Assembly: GCA_017935945.1 (NCBI GenBank)
Contig: JAGBGN010000119.1
Location: 1-52,309 of the forward strand
Direction: 5' to 3'
Length of the DNA: 52,309 bases
Source: Candidatus Methanomethylophilaceae archaeon
GTDB lineage: Archaea > Thermoplasmatota > Thermoplasmata > Methanomassiliicoccales > Methanomethylophilaceae
Translations under genes and position numbers: made by a program
Shown here: piece by piece, positions 21,731 to 45,858 of the stretch
Layout: the number at the start of each line of letters is the position of its first letter
Position numbering within the stretch: the stretch's first letter is position 1
The notes under the pieces: generated by a model
Databases searched by the model: none
What the model saw: the letters and a program-made list of their open reading frames with translations, nothing else
What the model was told of the DNA's origin: nothing

Positions 21731-22381
21731 ATGAAGATAGTAGCCATCAACGCAAGTCCTCGCAGGAAATGGAATACTGCCACATTGGTCGGTGAGGCAG
21801 CAGAAGGTGCCAAGTCCGAGGGAGCAGAGGTCGTAACATTCAACCTCTATGATCTGGGTGTATACTCCGGTTGCGTGTCCTGTTTCGGATGTAAAATAGG
21901 TAACAACAAGGGAAAGTGCGTCCACAAGGACGGATTGTCTAAGGTACTGGATGAGATCCGCACAGCAGATGGATTGATCATGGGATCCCCCAACTACCTT
22001 GGAGACGTCACTGCCGCATTCCGTGCATTGTATGAGAGGTTGGTATTCCAATACATCACCTACAGCAACGATCCTTGGAGCTATAATGAACGTCACATCC
22101 CTGTGTTGATGATAATGACCAGCAACATCTCCGAGGAAAGGTATCCCGAGGTGGGTTATGACGTTGTTCTGGAGAAGTACAAGCAGACGCTGAGTGCCCA
22201 CATCGGACCCACTGACATCATGATCAGTGGAGATACGTTACAGGTGAATGATTACAGCAAGTACGACTGGGGATATTTCGATCCAGAAAAGAAGAAGATA
22301 CGTCACGAGACCGAGTTCCCTGCCGAGAGGAAGAAGGTATTCGAACTTGGGGCGGAGATGGTTAGAAGACTATCGAAGTGA
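21731..22381 (+). CDS. Iron-sulfur flavoprotein (NADPH-dependent FMN reductase family)
   Basis: 216 residues. Flavodoxin-like fold with FMN phosphate loop INASPRRKWNTATLVGEA and GSPNYLGDVTAAFRALYERL. A compact cysteine cluster GCVSCFGCKIGNNKGKC (C-x2-C-x2-C-x7-C) can bind a [4Fe-4S] cluster, as in archaeal iron-sulfur flavoproteins. ATG 21731 (MKIVAINASPRRK) is the family start. It lies upstream of the nitrogenase-like operon on the same strand, so it could supply electrons, but a candidate RNA and terminator separate them. Confidence 0.9.
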   Translation: MKIVAINASPRRKWNTATLVGEAAEGAKSEGAEVVTFNLYDLGVYSGCVSCFGCKIGNNKGKCVHKDGLSKVLDEIRTADGLIMGSPNYLGDVTAAFRALYERLVFQYITYSNDPWSYNERHIPVLMIMTSNISEERYPEVGYDVVLEKYKQTLSAHIGPTDIMISGDTLQVNDYSKYDWGYFDPEKKKIRHETEFPAERKKVFELGAEMVRRLSK

Positions 22382-22732: not shown

Positions 22733-22751
22733 ATTGGATTATATATCCAAT
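22733..22751. promoter_or_regulatory. Palindrome enclosing the TATA box of the nitrogenase-like operon
   Basis: ATTGGAT-TATAT-ATCCAAT: perfect 7-bp arms with the TATA-like box in the centre, 21 nt before the ATG at 22772, which implies a leaderless mRNA. A protein bound here would block TBP, so it is a strong candidate repressor operator. A further symmetrical element, CTGT-N3-CATATG-N3-ACAG, lies at 22711-22730. Confidence 0.55.
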
Positions 22752-22771
22752 ACAATCCCATCCTGATTTCG

Positions 22772-24862
22772 ATGTTCAAGGTATCGGTTTACGGAAAGGG
22801 TGGGATAGGGAAGTCCACGATATCCGCCAATCTATCGTATGGTCTATCCAGAACGGGAAAACGCATACTGCATGTAGGATGCGATCCAAAACATGATTCC
22901 ACTCGTTTGTTGGTGGGTGGTGAACCGATACCGACCTATGCTGAAAAACCGACCGACCCTATCATCGATGCCGGTAATGGGATATCATGTCTGGAATGCG
23001 GGGGAGCAGAGTGTGGTACCGGTTGTGCAGGCAAGGGTATGGGTCTGATGTTCGACAGCATATCGGATATCGAGGCTGATTATAGGATCTGTGATGTTCT
23101 GGGGGATGTGGTGTGCGGCGGATTTTCCATACCACTTAGAAAGGGAAATGTCGACGCGGTGATCCTCGTGACATCGGGTGAGTTCATGTCATTATATGCA
23201 CTCAACAATCTTCTGAGAGGTATCCGCAACATCAACGATACCGCGTGCATCCTGGGGATAGTGTTCAATCGCAGAGGCGATGAAGGGGAGGAAGTACCGG
23301 TCAGGAGGTTCTCAGAGGCAGTCGGACTTCCGATTCTTTGTGATATACCACGCAGCAACCTCTTCAAGGAGGCAGAAGGTTCTGGAAGGACGTTGTTGGA
23401 GTCATATCCGGATTCCGATGAGGCCGTGGAGATACGCAGGATTATCGATGCGATAGAATCCAGATCGGAACTCCATCATGCATCACCCTTGCCTGAACGT
23501 TCAATGATGGATCTGGCAGCAGGCAGGCCCATCGTGGATAGAGATGACAGTAGGAGAGAGGGTAGATGCACATTCGAGATGGTTGATTATGAGAGGAACA
23601 TGACATACACCGGAAATCAGGTTATGCCTTCATGCTCCTCCCATGGAGGTGTGGACGCCGCTCTGAGGATAACGGATGCCGCCACCGTCATTCATGGTCC
23701 ATTGAACTGTGCATACCTGATGGAGTTCGCCTTCAGACGTAGGATGATGCAGAGTTCTGCAACCAGGGGAGGATTGTTGCCACCGTGCAATATCTACAGC
23801 ACGGCATTGGATGGGAACACCGCGTTCTCCGGAGATGTTGCCCTGGTGGAGGATGCCGTCCGCAGGGCGGTATCCGATGGTTTCAGACACGTGTTCATCG
23901 TGCCGACATGCTCATCCGAGATAATAGCCACGGATCTGGTCGGCGTGGCTTCTAGACTGTCATCCGAGATGGGGGCGGACATCGTTGCTGTGCCCGGAGA
24001 TGAGAACTTCCTCGGAAGTAAGTTCGGTGAGATAAACGGGGTGATGGACATCCTGATAGGGAGGATGGAACCCTGTATGAGTAGACGGGAGGGTGCCGTG
24101 AACCTGGTCAGCAGGATGTTCTACTCATTGGGTAGAGATGACAACATGAGGGAGTTCCGTATGATACTCGGGTCCATGGGCCTGGAGGTCAACAAAGTCT
24201 TCCTGGATATCTGTACGATGGATGACGTCATCCAGTACCCTGAAGCCGAATTCGGCATTCAACTGGGAAGATCCAAGTTCAACAGGGAGGTCTGCAGGAA
24301 GATAACCGAGCGGACTGGTATGATGCATGTGGAGGTGGACATCCCCATAGGTCTCGCAGAATCGTTGGAATGGGTAGATGTCATATGCGACAGTACTGGC
24401 AGATCCCACATGAAGGCGGATGCAAAGATGGCCCTCAGGGAACGGTACCGGTCCTTCATGGAACCTATACGTCGGAGGACTGAGGGGAAGAGGGTGATGA
24501 TCTACTATTTCTCACACTCCGATTTGGATTGGCACCTGGAGACATTGTCTGCCATCGGTGTGGAAGTGGTTCACGTGACATTCGTGAAGGGGAATGTGAT
24601 AGATCACAACGAGAAGGTCACTGATTGTGGAGACATTCCGGTGACACGGGATGGAACATTCTGCGGATTCAAGGAAGAGGTCGAGAGGTTGAAACCAGAC
24701 CTCATAATAACCAACGACCACAACAGGGTATCGAGTATCGGTGTACCCTGGTGCGGAATGAATGCATGGACAATGGGGATAGGTGGTGCCGTCGAATGGG
24801 CGCGGAAGGTCGCAGATTCCTTCGATCTGCCTACGGGCAGGGGATGGGAGGGAGGATTATGA
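22772..24862 (+). CDS. Nitrogenase-like reductase: NifH-type Fe protein fused to a NifD-type subunit
   Basis: 696 residues. Part 1 (about 1-255) is a complete Fe protein: P-loop VYGKGGIGKSTISANL, GCDPKHDSTRL, the [4Fe-4S] cysteines C85 (ECGTGCAGKGM) and C115 (DVLGDVVCGGFSIPLR). Part 2 (about 270-696) is NifD/CfbD-like: C288 (MPSCSSHGG), C313 (HGPLNCAYLM) and C380 (VPTCSSEI) have spacings 25 and 67, almost those of the NifD P-cluster cysteines (26 and 66). GKRVMIYYF and LKPDLIITND are typical of the second Rossmann unit. At the place of the cofactor-binding Cys275 it has a QLGRSKF stretch and no Cys. Fe-protein fusion to a D subunit is unusual. The substrate is unknown. Its stop overlaps the next start by 4 nt. 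Confidence 0.85.
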   Translation: MFKVSVYGKGGIGKSTISANLSYGLSRTGKRILHVGCDPKHDSTRLLVGGEPIPTYAEKPTDPIIDAGNGISCLECGGAECGTGCAGKGMGLMFDSISDIEADYRICDVLGDVVCGGFSIPLRKGNVDAVILVTSGEFMSLYALNNLLRGIRNINDTACILGIVFNRRGDEGEEVPVRRFSEAVGLPILCDIPRSNLFKEAEGSGRTLLESYPDSDEAVEIRRIIDAIESRSELHHASPLPERSMMDLAAGRPIVDRDDSRREGRCTFEMVDYERNMTYTGNQVMPSCSSHGGVDAALRITDAATVIHGPLNCAYLMEFAFRRRMMQSSATRGGLLPPCNIYSTALDGNTAFSGDVALVEDAVRRAVSDGFRHVFIVPTCSSEIIATDLVGVASRLSSEMGADIVAVPGDENFLGSKFGEINGVMDILIGRMEPCMSRREGAVNLVSRMFYSLGRDDNMREFRMILGSMGLEVNKVFLDICTMDDVIQYPEAEFGIQLGRSKFNREVCRKITERTGMMHVEVDIPIGLAESLEWVDVICDSTGRSHMKADAKMALRERYRSFMEPIRRRTEGKRVMIYYFSHSDLDWHLETLSAIGVEVVHVTFVKGNVIDHNEKVTDCGDIPVTRDGTFCGFKEEVERLKPDLIITNDHNRVSSIGVPWCGMNAWTMGIGGAVEWARKVADSFDLPTGRGWEGGL

Positions 24863-26151
24863 TCCTGAGGCCGGATGGAACACTGGGTGCGGTGCTGGCA
24901 TCGGAATCGCTCGGTCTCACCGACACACTGGTCAACGGTGCCGGTGGATGCAGGTCCAGGACGCAGATCATGTTGCGCGATCTCATGTCGACTTACAAGG
25001 AGGAGGACACGAGATGCTGCGGGTCCAGATTCTTCAGCAGGCAGTCACGTCTTCCGTGCACGTACATCAACGGTGACGACATCGTATTCGGAACGGGATG
25101 CAAGGTTTCTGAGGGGATATCATCGGTATCCGGTATCACTGGGAAGCCGACATCAGTCGTGGAGACTTTAGGTGCATCATTGGTATGCACCGATTACGCA
25201 CAGATATCCGGAAACGGTGTGGAAGTCATCCCCCTGGATGCAGACCTGTCCTCGATGTCATTCGAGGAAGGGTATGATTTCGCCATGGAGCGGATACTCA
25301 GTCACCTGCTACCGGATGATAGGGAGAGGACATCCGAACCATCCGTCAATCTGCTTGGATATGGCATCCACGATCTTGGTTGGGAATTCGGTCTAGATGA
25401 TCTGAAGGCCCTTCTTTCCAACATGGGTGTGAAGGTATTGGCCGCCATCGGCTGCATGCCGTCCGAGGACGAGGTCATCGCATCCACCGGTGCATGGTTG
25501 AACATAATGGTCCATCCTGAGTCATGCACAGAGACAGCGAGGATGTACGAGAGGAATCATGACATTCCATTTCTGCGTCCGAAGGACGGTGCACCGGTCG
25601 GATACGATTCGATACGTTCCATGTTGAAACAGGTCGGAGAGGCATTGGGTATCGATCCCACTCCTGCATTGTGCGCAGTGGATTCGGAGGCATCCAAGGT
25701 ACTTGGCATGTTGAGGAACTACAATAAAGGGGTAAACATGCTCCGTGGAAGGATGTACTCCATAGAGGCATCATCATCGGAACTGTATCCGCTGATGGTG
25801 TGGATGCATGATGTCTTCGCCATGGTCCCTGACTCCATCATCCCGTTGGATCCCGAGTATCTGTCTGAGATAGCGACGTATCTGGAATCCATAGGCAAGG
25901 CCGATTCGTTGATGTCCCCCAGACATGGAGTCGATGACATCGTGTTCACAGATGGTGTGGACTGTGCATACGGTAAGGCGGAAGGAGGGGTGACATCGTA
26001 TGTCGAGGTCCGTCCACCCAACATGCGTGGATTGAACCTCGTTGGCAGATGTACTGTCGGGACAGGCGGATGCAGATATCTGATCGATGAGATGCTCAAC
26101 GGTATCAACAGGTTCAGGTGCGGACAACCGTCCAGCATAGATATGAGATGA
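24859..26151 (+). CDS. Nitrogenase-like reductase, second (NifK/NifD-type) subunit
   Basis: 430 residues. The N-terminal cysteines C31 (GAGGCRSRTQ), C53-C54 (TRCCGSRFF) and C110 (GASLVCTDYAQ) have the spacing of the NifK P-cluster set; C67 and C81 are extra. Later parts (VNLLGYGIHDLGWEFGLDDLKALLSNMGVKV and IGKADSLMSPRHGVDDIVF) follow the nitrogenase component 1 fold of Rossmann units. Start ATG 24859 overlaps the fusion gene (ATGA), so it is coupled and probably an obligate partner in an alpha-beta complex fed by the fused Fe protein. It ends with a strong terminator. No nifE, nifN, nifB or nifI is nearby, so dinitrogen fixation is unlikely. Confidence 0.82.
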   Translation: MILRPDGTLGAVLASESLGLTDTLVNGAGGCRSRTQIMLRDLMSTYKEEDTRCCGSRFFSRQSRLPCTYINGDDIVFGTGCKVSEGISSVSGITGKPTSVVETLGASLVCTDYAQISGNGVEVIPLDADLSSMSFEEGYDFAMERILSHLLPDDRERTSEPSVNLLGYGIHDLGWEFGLDDLKALLSNMGVKVLAAIGCMPSEDEVIASTGAWLNIMVHPESCTETARMYERNHDIPFLRPKDGAPVGYDSIRSMLKQVGEALGIDPTPALCAVDSEASKVLGMLRNYNKGVNMLRGRMYSIEASSSELYPLMVWMHDVFAMVPDSIIPLDPEYLSEIATYLESIGKADSLMSPRHGVDDIVFTDGVDCAYGKAEGGVTSYVEVRPPNMRGLNLVGRCTVGTGGCRYLIDEMLNGINRFRCGQPSSIDMR

Positions 26152-26160
26152 AATAGCTGG

Positions 26161-26180
26161 GGAGGGGCATTTGCCCCTCC
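26161..26180. terminator. Terminator between the nitrogenase-like operon and the convergent DUF308-like gene
   Basis: Perfect 9-bp stem GGAGGGGCA / TGCCCCTCC with a 2-nt centre. It lies between two convergent gene ends and can serve both strands. Confidence 0.7.
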
Positions 26181-26194
26181 GAAAACTCGGGGTT

Positions 26195-26695
26195 TCAGCG
26201 GACCGCGGTCCATATGCTGAGAGAGGACATGACGACCAGGACGAGTCCTATGAGCATCATCGCCAGGTCGGCGGTGGCACCGGGTACGACTATGAGCACC
26301 AATGCGATCGCAATCAGGGCGAGTCCGATCAGGAGGTTGGTTCCTCTCTTCTTCTTGGATTTGGTGTCATCCAATATCTTGATGACACCGAACACGGCCA
26401 TGAACGCTGCAAGCACGTAGATCATCAGGACCAGGAACACGCCCGATGCAAGGACCAGAAGAAGTCCGAGTATGCATGCAAGGGTGCCCAGTACCTTCTC
26501 GCTACCGTTGTCACCACGGATCCCTCTACTCAGGGTGTTGGATCCATAGACCATCATTATGGCCCCTATGAAGATGATGACCATGGAGATGGCACCCGAC
26601 CTCATTACGATCAGGATTATTCCCAGCATGAACAGCAGTATCGAACTCGCCAGGGAATCCTTCCAGGGTGCCAGTCTGGATATGTCGGCTTTCAT
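26195..26695 (-). CDS. DUF308-like membrane protein (paralogue 1)
   Basis: 166 residues with six hydrophobic helices and almost no other features. The motif pattern of repeated GIILIVMRSGAISMVIIFIG and LIGLALIAIALVLIV resembles the HdeD/DUF308 family of small six-helix membrane proteins. The ATG at 26695 (MKADISRLAPWKDSL) is chosen because the paralogue at 27637 also starts with a short polar stretch ending in PWKDS. Function unknown; acid resistance is known only for E. coli HdeD. Confidence 0.8.
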   Translation of the reverse strand: MKADISRLAPWKDSLASSILLFMLGIILIVMRSGAISMVIIFIGAIMMVYGSNTLSRGIRGDNGSEKVLGTLACILGLLLVLASGVFLVLMIYVLAAFMAVFGVIKILDDTKSKKKRGTNLLIGLALIAIALVLIVVPGATADLAMMLIGLVLVVMSSLSIWTAVR

Positions 26696-44446: not shown

Positions 44447-45031
44447 ATGATAATTTGCACAAGCGAATCCTTGTTGAGTGAGTTGAGTGACTATTCAAAC
44501 CCTCATATGAAGATCAAGAGGATGGTCCGTGATGGTGAGTTGATTCACATCAAGAGGGGATTGTATGAAACTAATCCGGATGTAGAGTCAGAGTATCTAG
44601 CATATGCAATATATGGTCCATCATACCTCTCATTTGATTATGCGCTTTCATATCATGGTATAATCCCTGAGAGTGTAAGAGTATGTACTTCTGCAACCAC
44701 TGGCAAGTTTAGAAGAAAGACATTCGAAACGCCTTTTGGTTATTATTCATATCGTGATGTGCCTCAGCAAGTATTCGAGATGGGGGTACTATCTTTTGAT
44801 CAAGATGATTATAGGTTGAGGATAGCATCAGCTGAGAAGGCAGTTTGTGATAAGATATACACAATGCATCCGGTGGATAATGTAATCGAGATGGGAGAAT
44901 TGATGTTTGAAGATCTTAGATTTGACGAATCTATGATAGAGGAGTTAGATAAGAATATTATTGAACAATTGGTGGATGGTTACCATTCAAAGAATGTTAA
45001 GTTATTATCTAAGGTTTTGGAGGATTATTGA
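44447..45031 (+). CDS. AbiEi-type antitoxin, winged-helix regulator
   Basis: 194 residues. The N-terminal winged HTH (LLSELSDYSNPHMKIKRMVRDGELIHIKRGLYETNP) is the usual AbiEi antitoxin start. The middle domain has YGPSYLSFDYALSYHGIIPES, VCTSATTGKFRRKTFETPFG, and ASAEKAVCDKIYT, all typical. Low G+C and A/T-ending codons contrast with neighbours, a sign of transfer. The stop overlaps the next start by 1 nt (TGATG). Confidence 0.9.
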   Translation: MIICTSESLLSELSDYSNPHMKIKRMVRDGELIHIKRGLYETNPDVESEYLAYAIYGPSYLSFDYALSYHGIIPESVRVCTSATTGKFRRKTFETPFGYYSYRDVPQQVFEMGVLSFDQDDYRLRIASAEKAVCDKIYTMHPVDNVIEMGELMFEDLRFDESMIEELDKNIIEQLVDGYHSKNVKLLSKVLEDY

Positions 45032-45858
45032 TGGATAATGGAACCTTGGTTGTCAAGGATCACCTTAGAGAGGAAATGCAAAAGATTTTTTTGAAAACGA
45101 TATCAAGAACTGATTTTTTCGATAATGCAGCATTCTATGGAGGAACAGCTCTGAGACTATTCCACGGATTAGACCGTTTCTCAGAAGATTTAGATTTTTC
45201 ATTATTGAAACCATTTCCTGAGTTTAATTTGGAGTCCTATCATGAAGTTATTGTAGATGGTTTTTTAGAATATGGTATTGAAGTTACAGTAAAGAAAATC
45301 AACAAGAGAACGATGACCACTGTTCAGACTTCTAATGTTGTGGCTAAATATCAATCTCTATCACATTTTTGTGATGATGTTGGAATGAAAGGTAATTTTC
45401 ATCGTGATGAATTGTTGAAGATTAAGTTTGAGATCGATACCATGCCTCCATCATTTGCTGGGTATGAGTGGGTTGAGTTGGATTCATCACGTATAAGGTT
45501 GTATGATTTCGGATCATTGTTTGCTGGAAAAGTGAGTGCGGTATTGACTCGTGGGTGGAACAATCGCGTCAAAGGGCGTGATTTTTATGATTTCATATAT
45601 TACATCAACAATGGTATTGAATTAAACATGTGCTACTTACAGTCTAGTTTGAAGAAGATGAATAATTTGGAAGGTAGCCTCACTGATGAAAAGTTAAGAA
45701 GAAAGTTGGAGGAACGGTTTAGGGCCGTTGATTATGAATCTGCAAAGGAAGATATTGTTAACTTCATAAGAGATGGTAAAGTATTGGATTGTTGGGATTC
45801 TGATTACTTTATTAGTTTGCTTGACAATTTAAAAACATCTTATAAGGGGTTGTGTTAA
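45031..45858 (+). CDS. AbiEii-type nucleotidyltransferase toxin
   Basis: 275 residues. DNA polymerase beta-like nucleotidyltransferase toxin of the AbiEii/MenA group, which can modify tRNA and stop growth. Motif: FYGGTALRLFHGLDRFSEDLDFSLL (GG...DxD), then KIKFEIDT, and RLYDFGSLFAGKVSAVLTRGWNNRVKGRDFYDFIYYI, the conserved K-x3-R-x-KxRDxxD block. The pattern looks complete, so it is probably active. Low G+C, TAA stop, RBS-like GGAGG just upstream. Forms a two-gene type IV toxin-antitoxin system with the preceding gene. Confidence 0.9.
   Translation: MDNGTLVVKDHLREEMQKIFLKTISRTDFFDNAAFYGGTALRLFHGLDRFSEDLDFSLLKPFPEFNLESYHEVIVDGFLEYGIEVTVKKINKRTMTTVQTSNVVAKYQSLSHFCDDVGMKGNFHRDELLKIKFEIDTMPPSFAGYEWVELDSSRIRLYDFGSLFAGKVSAVLTRGWNNRVKGRDFYDFIYYINNGIELNMCYLQSSLKKMNNLEGSLTDEKLRRKLEERFRAVDYESAKEDIVNFIRDGKVLDCWDSDYFISLLDNLKTSYKGLC

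Follow-up and report, generated by a model that had tools for sequence, protein, structure and literature searches.

Gene pair and domain architecture

The window analysed here, a 52,309 nucleotide stretch of contig JAGBGN010000119.1 from a Candidatus Methanomethylophilaceae archaeon (assembly GCA_017935945.1), carries at positions 22772–26151 two genes of the nitrogenase superfamily, the first of which (HD) encodes an Fe protein fused to a NifD-type subunit, and the second (K) a NifK-type partner. The start codon of K overlaps the stop codon of HD by 4 nt (ATGA), and the pair and its homologues are referred to here as HDK. The genes and their domains are as follows.

22772..24862, + strand: HD, Fe protein (NifH-like) fused to a NifD-type subunit, 696 aa (single open reading frame, Pfam, AlphaFold2)
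22778..23518, + strand: Fe-protein domain of HD (PF00142, Fer4_NifH, residues 3–249, E 1.8e-59)
23633..24814, + strand: NifD-type domain of HD (PF00148, Oxidored_nitro, residues 288–681, E 1.4e-44)
24859..26151, + strand: K, NifK-type partner, 430 aa (PF00148, Oxidored_nitro, E 8e-22)

Both the fusion and the 4 nt overlap had been described in an earlier note made from the sequence alone, and both hold, with HD forming one open frame of 696 aa along which the Pfam domains agree. A frameshift artefact joining two separate genes is ruled out, since the fusion recurs at three paralogous loci of the source genome and in dozens of others.

Cluster ligands

Ligand columns were assigned by aligning 19 HD/K pairs with true NifD, NifK, NifE, NifN, BchN, BchB, BchY, BchZ, and CfbD sequences. 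The Fe-protein domain of HD contains the P-loop GKGGIGKST and, as previously noted, the two [4Fe-4S] cysteines C85 (23024–23026) and C115 (23114–23116), which are invariant in the alignments, and this NifH-type P-loop ATPase together with a component-1 fold places the pair in the nitrogenase superfamily. Residues C288, C313, and C380 of the D domain align with the three P-cluster cysteines of NifD and are invariant in all 19 fused D domains. In K, the only conserved ligand of P-cluster type is C31 (24949..24951, + strand; alignment), which occupies the column of the second cysteine of real NifK, with Asp at the first NifK cysteine and Leu or Pro at the third in all 19 partners. Every pair thus retains three of the three positions in D and one of the three in K, rather than the six cysteines of NifHDK, and a complete P-cluster is ruled out. 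The NifK-like cysteine spacing once proposed for K (C31, C53/C54, and C110) is therefore correct for C31 alone; C53 and C54 fall within a clade-specific insert, and C110 lies off the ligand columns and is lost outside close relatives.

In dark-operative protochlorophyllide oxidoreductase (DPOR, BchLNB) and chlorophyllide a reductase (COR, BchXYZ), the [4Fe-4S] cluster is held by three cysteines of one subunit and one ligand of the other. The ligands of HD and K lie in the same columns as those of BchN/BchY and BchZ, and the arrangement of three cysteines from D and one from K is, as judged from the alignment, of the DPOR/COR type and not that of nitrogenase, with one [4Fe-4S] cluster expected to form between D and K. 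The column of K C31 is occupied by Cys in BchZ and by Asp in BchB.

As in DPOR and COR, the ligands of the nitrogenase M-cluster are absent. The column of the iron-molybdenum cofactor (FeMo-co) cysteine (NifD Cys275) is Gly in the window chain and Cys in none of the 19 fused D domains, as expected from the earlier note, and that of the cofactor histidine (NifD His442) is likewise not His but Pro in the HD of the window and Arg in the C122 paralogue. Methylthio-alkane reductase (MAR) has both a P-cluster and an [Fe8S9C] cluster (PMC12552129), and the corresponding MAR/group IV ligand set is lacking in HD/K. Domains and ligand columns therefore agree with the proposal that this is a nitrogenase-superfamily reductase with a built-in Fe protein and no M-cluster site.

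Phylogeny and distribution

The source genome carries four HD and K pairs, on contigs C38 (the window), C45, C61, and C122. Across 120 genomes of the order Methanomassiliicoccales, most of which are drafts or metagenome-assembled genomes, a K-type partner is found in 70, and free-standing Fe-protein matches of ~260–290 aa are accompanied by many within open frames of ~700 aa. No HDK member was found outside the order among the genomes sampled in a phylum-wide search, and plasmid searches returned no match for a paralogue K and only distant Nif/Bch relatives for the window D domain.

All fused D domains group in one clade and all their partners in another (100/100 each), with CfbD on a third, separate branch (100/100), placing HD/K outside CfbCD. 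HD and K also lie outside the Bch clades and below the equivalog cut-offs, with the Bch and Sporomusa rows forming long branches whose exact placement is unreliable. The fused H domains likewise group together, apart from CfbC and NifH (96/100), with the long BchL branch falling among them. The window's own clade comprises 17 loci that are 38–75% identical in K, and those of its members included in the H, D, and K trees group together with support of 100/99 or 100/100. A 75% identical orthologue occurs in a Candidatus Methanomethylophilaceae metagenome-assembled genome from sheep colon (L018), the sole close relative in a scan of named genome contigs.

The window clade is further distinguished by its cysteines, which were counted in eight of its members and in 11 paralogues.

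25015..25059, + strand: K C53 and C54, clade-specific (insert), with C67 (PCTY) (alignment)
25453..25455, + strand: K C199, restricted to the window clade (8/8 vs 0/11; invariant in A1)
26119..26121, + strand: K C421 in the C-terminal CGQP, restricted to the window clade (8/8 vs 0/11; invariant in A1)
24662..24664, + strand: HD C631, restricted to the window clade (8/8 vs 0/11)

Within the insert, C53 is present in 8/8 members and C54 in 7/8, both against 0/11 paralogues, and C67 is shared by 8/8 members and 8/11 paralogues; by inspection, C76 of HD is a further private cysteine. That the window clade branches separately and has cysteines of its own makes a substrate particular to it, or an additional metal site, probable.

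Two genomes of the order present further variations. In one of the same methanogen family (G036), a nifHDKEN-like run (L047:8427-16198) shows that a true nitrogenase set and fused HDK can occur in a single genome. In another (G098), a window-clade orthologue on the minus strand (L026:9333-12802) has one in-frame TAG each in HD and K, and both proteins are full-length and well conserved if TAG is read as pyrrolysine. Given that the order is known for its use of pyrrolysine, these may be pyrrolysine-containing proteins and not pseudogenes.

Structure models and profile comparisons

AlphaFold2 models were built as single chains. In the HD model (mean pLDDT 81), the H domain matches Fe proteins with a TM-score (target) of ~0.84, and the D part matches NifD and NifE chains. 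The K model (mean pLDDT 70) finds DPOR subunit B as its best match in the PDB (E 9e-14, TM ~0.5), and the K profile also finds BchB at 1e-12, with the BchB family model scoring 50 bits against a cut-off of 490. The top NCBIfam match of the H domain is CfbC (221 bits, cut-off 402).

Transcription unit and neighbouring genes

The pair is preceded by a 390 nt AT-rich gap with a TATA-like element, and followed by a strong hairpin.

22735..22771, + strand: TATA-like element ~25–33 nt 5' of the HD start, possible leaderless archaeal promoter (identified by eye)
26160..26181, + strand: GC-rich hairpin 3' of the K stop, possible transcript end (-22.9 kcal/mol, z -3.0, in a fold of 26150–26200)

These flanks suggest that HD and K are probably a transcription unit of their own, with which the cobalamin genes upstream and metY, located ~3.2 kb downstream on the opposite strand, are not co-transcribed, and that these neighbours consequently tell little about function. 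A gene for an NADPH-dependent FMN reductase or flavodoxin-like protein lies just 5' of HD (21731–22378), and similar genes (cluster c12) occur near some paralogous HDK loci (L015, L036, L048, and L049); proteins of this type could serve as electron donors. Neither the cobalamin genes, metY, nor the flavodoxin-like gene recurs around the orthologues fetched, and for this reason, together with the apparently separate transcription of the pair, the window neighbours were not used to assign a substrate. Of the two substrates that the earlier note had drawn from this neighbourhood, a tetrapyrrole retains support from the wider genome context described below, whilst a sulfur compound is unsupported given the absence of M-cluster ligands and the apparent independence of the gene pair.

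Genome context across the order

HDK and CobN-type chelatases occur together in 64 of the 120 genomes and are both absent from 46, with six genomes having HDK only and four having CobN only (Fisher p ~1e-21, phylogeny not corrected for). Of 96 paralogous HDK loci, 27 have CobN within 20 kb, compared with ~6% expected, and around the 17 window-clade loci a CbiK or CfbA-like chelatase is found within 10 kb of five (~0.5 expected) and within 4 kb of four (~0.2 expected) under a rough Poisson null, all of these neighbour statistics being rough and uncorrected for relatedness. Operon-like neighbourhoods containing CbiZ, ChlI/D, CobN, and BtuF/FecCD surround six loci (L030, L038, L039, L042, L044, and L045), with the order BtuF - FecC - FecE - CbiZ - ChlI - ChlD - HD - K ... 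CobN in L042. Alongside its four HDK pairs, the source genome encodes five CobN, three CbiZ, and 18 FecCD.

Across the order, the genomes of gut methanogens carry up to 5–6 CobN-type genes, and next to some of these lie a second, divergent CbiZ and FecCD importers (in the source genome, contigs C40, C46, C55, and C136). S-adenosylmethionine-dependent methyltransferases occur near window-clade HDK in L026, L028, L029, and L034, at least one of them ending in an ArsR-type helix-turn-helix, and adjoin dockerin-like substrate-binding proteins and FecCD importers.

Discussion

The explanation that best accommodates these observations, and which we consider to stand an about even chance of being correct, is that HD and K form an ATP-driven reductase to which the Fe protein is attached, which relays electrons through one [4Fe-4S] cluster and binds in its D/K cleft a tetrapyrrole, a class that includes vitamin B12, F430, heme, and chlorophyll. 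HD and K would assemble into a nitrogenase-like complex of (HD)2K2 type, with the Fe protein covalently joined to the catalytic chain and the H domains dimerising and taking electrons from ferredoxin or flavodoxin. Upon ATP hydrolysis, electrons would be passed one by one to the single [4Fe-4S] cluster, held by C288, C313, and C380 of the D domain and C31 of K, and then to the tetrapyrrole in the D/K cleft, a position that would correspond to the FeMo-co site of nitrogenase and the substrate site of DPOR and CfbD. The CobN-type and CbiK/CfbA-type chelatases, CbiZ, and BtuCD/FecCD-type importers that accompany HDK point to a corrinoid, sirohydrochlorin-type, or other tetrapyrrole as the most likely substrate, one that is imported, demetallated or remetallated, or edited in its side chains. 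The direct evidence consists of the domains, their fusion, the conserved ligand columns, the phylogeny, and the genome company; the substrate, the product, and reduction of the ring versus the metal are what we infer.

Several observations weigh against this explanation. The K model is poor around C31 (pLDDT <50), and the best match of the K profile in the PDB is the MAR subunit MarK (1.7e-15); the K clade is about equally near to MarK and BchB by profile, and the fold alone is therefore not decisive for function. Furthermore, the window HD/K pair stands alone, with neither a chelatase nor an importer adjacent, and CobN is near only 1/17 window-clade loci. Proximity of the window clade to FecCD is barely above chance and was dropped as evidence, since FecCD genes are very abundant (16–31 per genome in most).

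The main alternative retains the same class of substrate but places the reduction at the metal and not the ring, with a low-potential, ATP-driven reductase making the metal of an imported metallo-tetrapyrrole (corrinoid, heme, or other) low-valent, such that it could be removed by CobN-like or CbiK-like enzymes, or the cofactor reactivated. This we regard as unlikely, if still the foremost competitor. The clustering and co-occurrence of HDK with CobN-type chelatases, CbiZ, and importers would fit such a role, and HmuS of Bacteroides, a de-chelatase of the CobN family, needs the iron of heme to be reduced (PMC12583661), with the same 2025 study describing the role of the archaeal CobN/HmuS homologues as unclear. 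On the other hand, the characterised enzymes DPOR, COR, and CfbCD act on the macrocycle and not the metal (PMC7242693), and the scarcity of CobN near the window clade tells against metal reduction as well.

A second CfbCD, acting in the biosynthesis of F430 or on an F430 variant, or replacing CfbCD in the source organism, appears improbable. Such a role is suggested by the failure to detect CfbC and CfbD in the source draft, by a CfbA-like chelatase directly 3' of K in one relative (L033), and by the rank of CfbC as top match of the H domain, which is 39–50% identical to CfbC. HDK and CfbCD also share a methanogen host, a nitrogenase-like make-up, and a tetrapyrrole context. However, none of the HD and K proteins of the source genome exceeds the TIGR03282 (CfbD) cut-off, the H domain remains under that of CfbC, and CfbD is homodimeric and outside both HDK clades, unlike the heteromeric D and K with their fused Fe protein. 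Canonical CfbD exceeds the cut-off in 15 of the 16 genomes tested, including every other HDK carrier among them and HDK-free methanogens, the exception being the source draft, and canonical CfbC-CfbA-CfbE-CfbD-CfbB clusters accompany HDK in two relatives (L046 and L053). The earlier note had asked whether HDK occurs in addition to cfbC and cfbD, and in relatives it does; the source draft, taken literally, has no other cfbC or cfbD, which that note would have counted towards CfbCD, yet this appears to reflect an assembly gap. As cfbA, cfbC, cfbD, and cfbE, contiguous in relatives, are missing jointly, and cfbD is present in the 15 other genomes, one contig has probably been lost from the draft, and since the source genome encodes methyl-coenzyme M reductase (mcrA is present), this is the simplest reading. 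For the same reasons, HDK as the CfbCD of the source organism was rejected as the most likely assignment.

An enzyme of MAR or nitrogenase type, with complex metalloclusters and a sulfur or nitrogen substrate, is very unlikely, as, despite membership of the superfamily, the closeness of MarK to the K profile, and metY 3.2 kb away (on the opposite strand), K lacks two of the three P-cluster cysteines and D the cofactor cysteine in all 19 pairs.

Among characterised systems, DPOR and COR are of those closest to HDK, with COR sharing a BchZ cysteine in the column of K C31, and BchB of DPOR being the closest to K in fold. HDK differs from both in the fusion of its Fe protein to the catalytic subunit, in its low identity (~20–29%) and separate clade, and in its non-phototrophic host and other gene neighbours. 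A docking and release cycle of the Fe protein is thought to be central in nitrogenase and DPOR, and HDK adds to the superfamily a branch of multiple paralogues whose Fe protein and catalytic subunit are permanently tethered to each other.

The nitrogenase paralogues of group VI (Meheust et al. 2020, cited in PMC9391474 and PMC11257099), for which a role with tetrapyrroles has been proposed, are similar in being uncharacterised and in this proposed role, as far as these descriptions of them extend. A 2025 study (PMC12176620) kept tetrapyrrole reductases out of its Nif tree and did not settle group VI. A ‘fused nifH/nifE’ of Candidatus Methanomassiliicoccus intestinalis appears as an annotation near an origin-recognition box in Borrel et al. 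(2014; PMC4153887), where the main text gives neither analysis nor function; with the same order and architecture as HD, it very probably belongs to the HDK family. The literature search, incomplete in its coverage, returned no description of a fused HDK family, of its 3+1 ligand set, or of its chelatase company.

A comparable but unfused arrangement, which counts towards the favoured explanation, is found on the plasmid pSPTER of the bacterium Sporomusa termitida (L057:631-12273), where siderophore-receptor and FecCD importer genes are directly followed by separate H, D, and K genes. These nflHDK genes resemble HDK in forming an operon-like nitrogenase-like set with a BtuCD/FecCD-type importer, but are three separate genes, lie on a long branch outside both archaeal HDK clades, and have His in place of Cys at the K C31 column.

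With HDK, the CobN/HmuS homologues of methanogenic archaea gain a candidate partner, and the salvage and remodelling of tetrapyrroles by gut methanogens becomes a testable question. More tentatively, and with the chances well below even, the radiating, self-contained fused reductases of the Methanomassiliicoccales, of which a genome may hold several, their CobN (de)chelatases, CbiZ, and importers may constitute a hitherto unrecognised system for the import, demetallation, reduction, and rebuilding of gut tetrapyrroles, in which the window clade would make a tetrapyrrole new to science. Corrinoids, F430, heme, or chlorophyll derivatives would then be the sources.

Other features of the window

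Elsewhere in the window, positions 44447–45858 encode an AbiEi/AbiEii-type toxin-antitoxin (anti-phage) pair, identified by PADLOC with E-values of 1e-66 and 7e-78. This island is AT-rich (38% GC, compared with ~54%) and looks to have been acquired horizontally.

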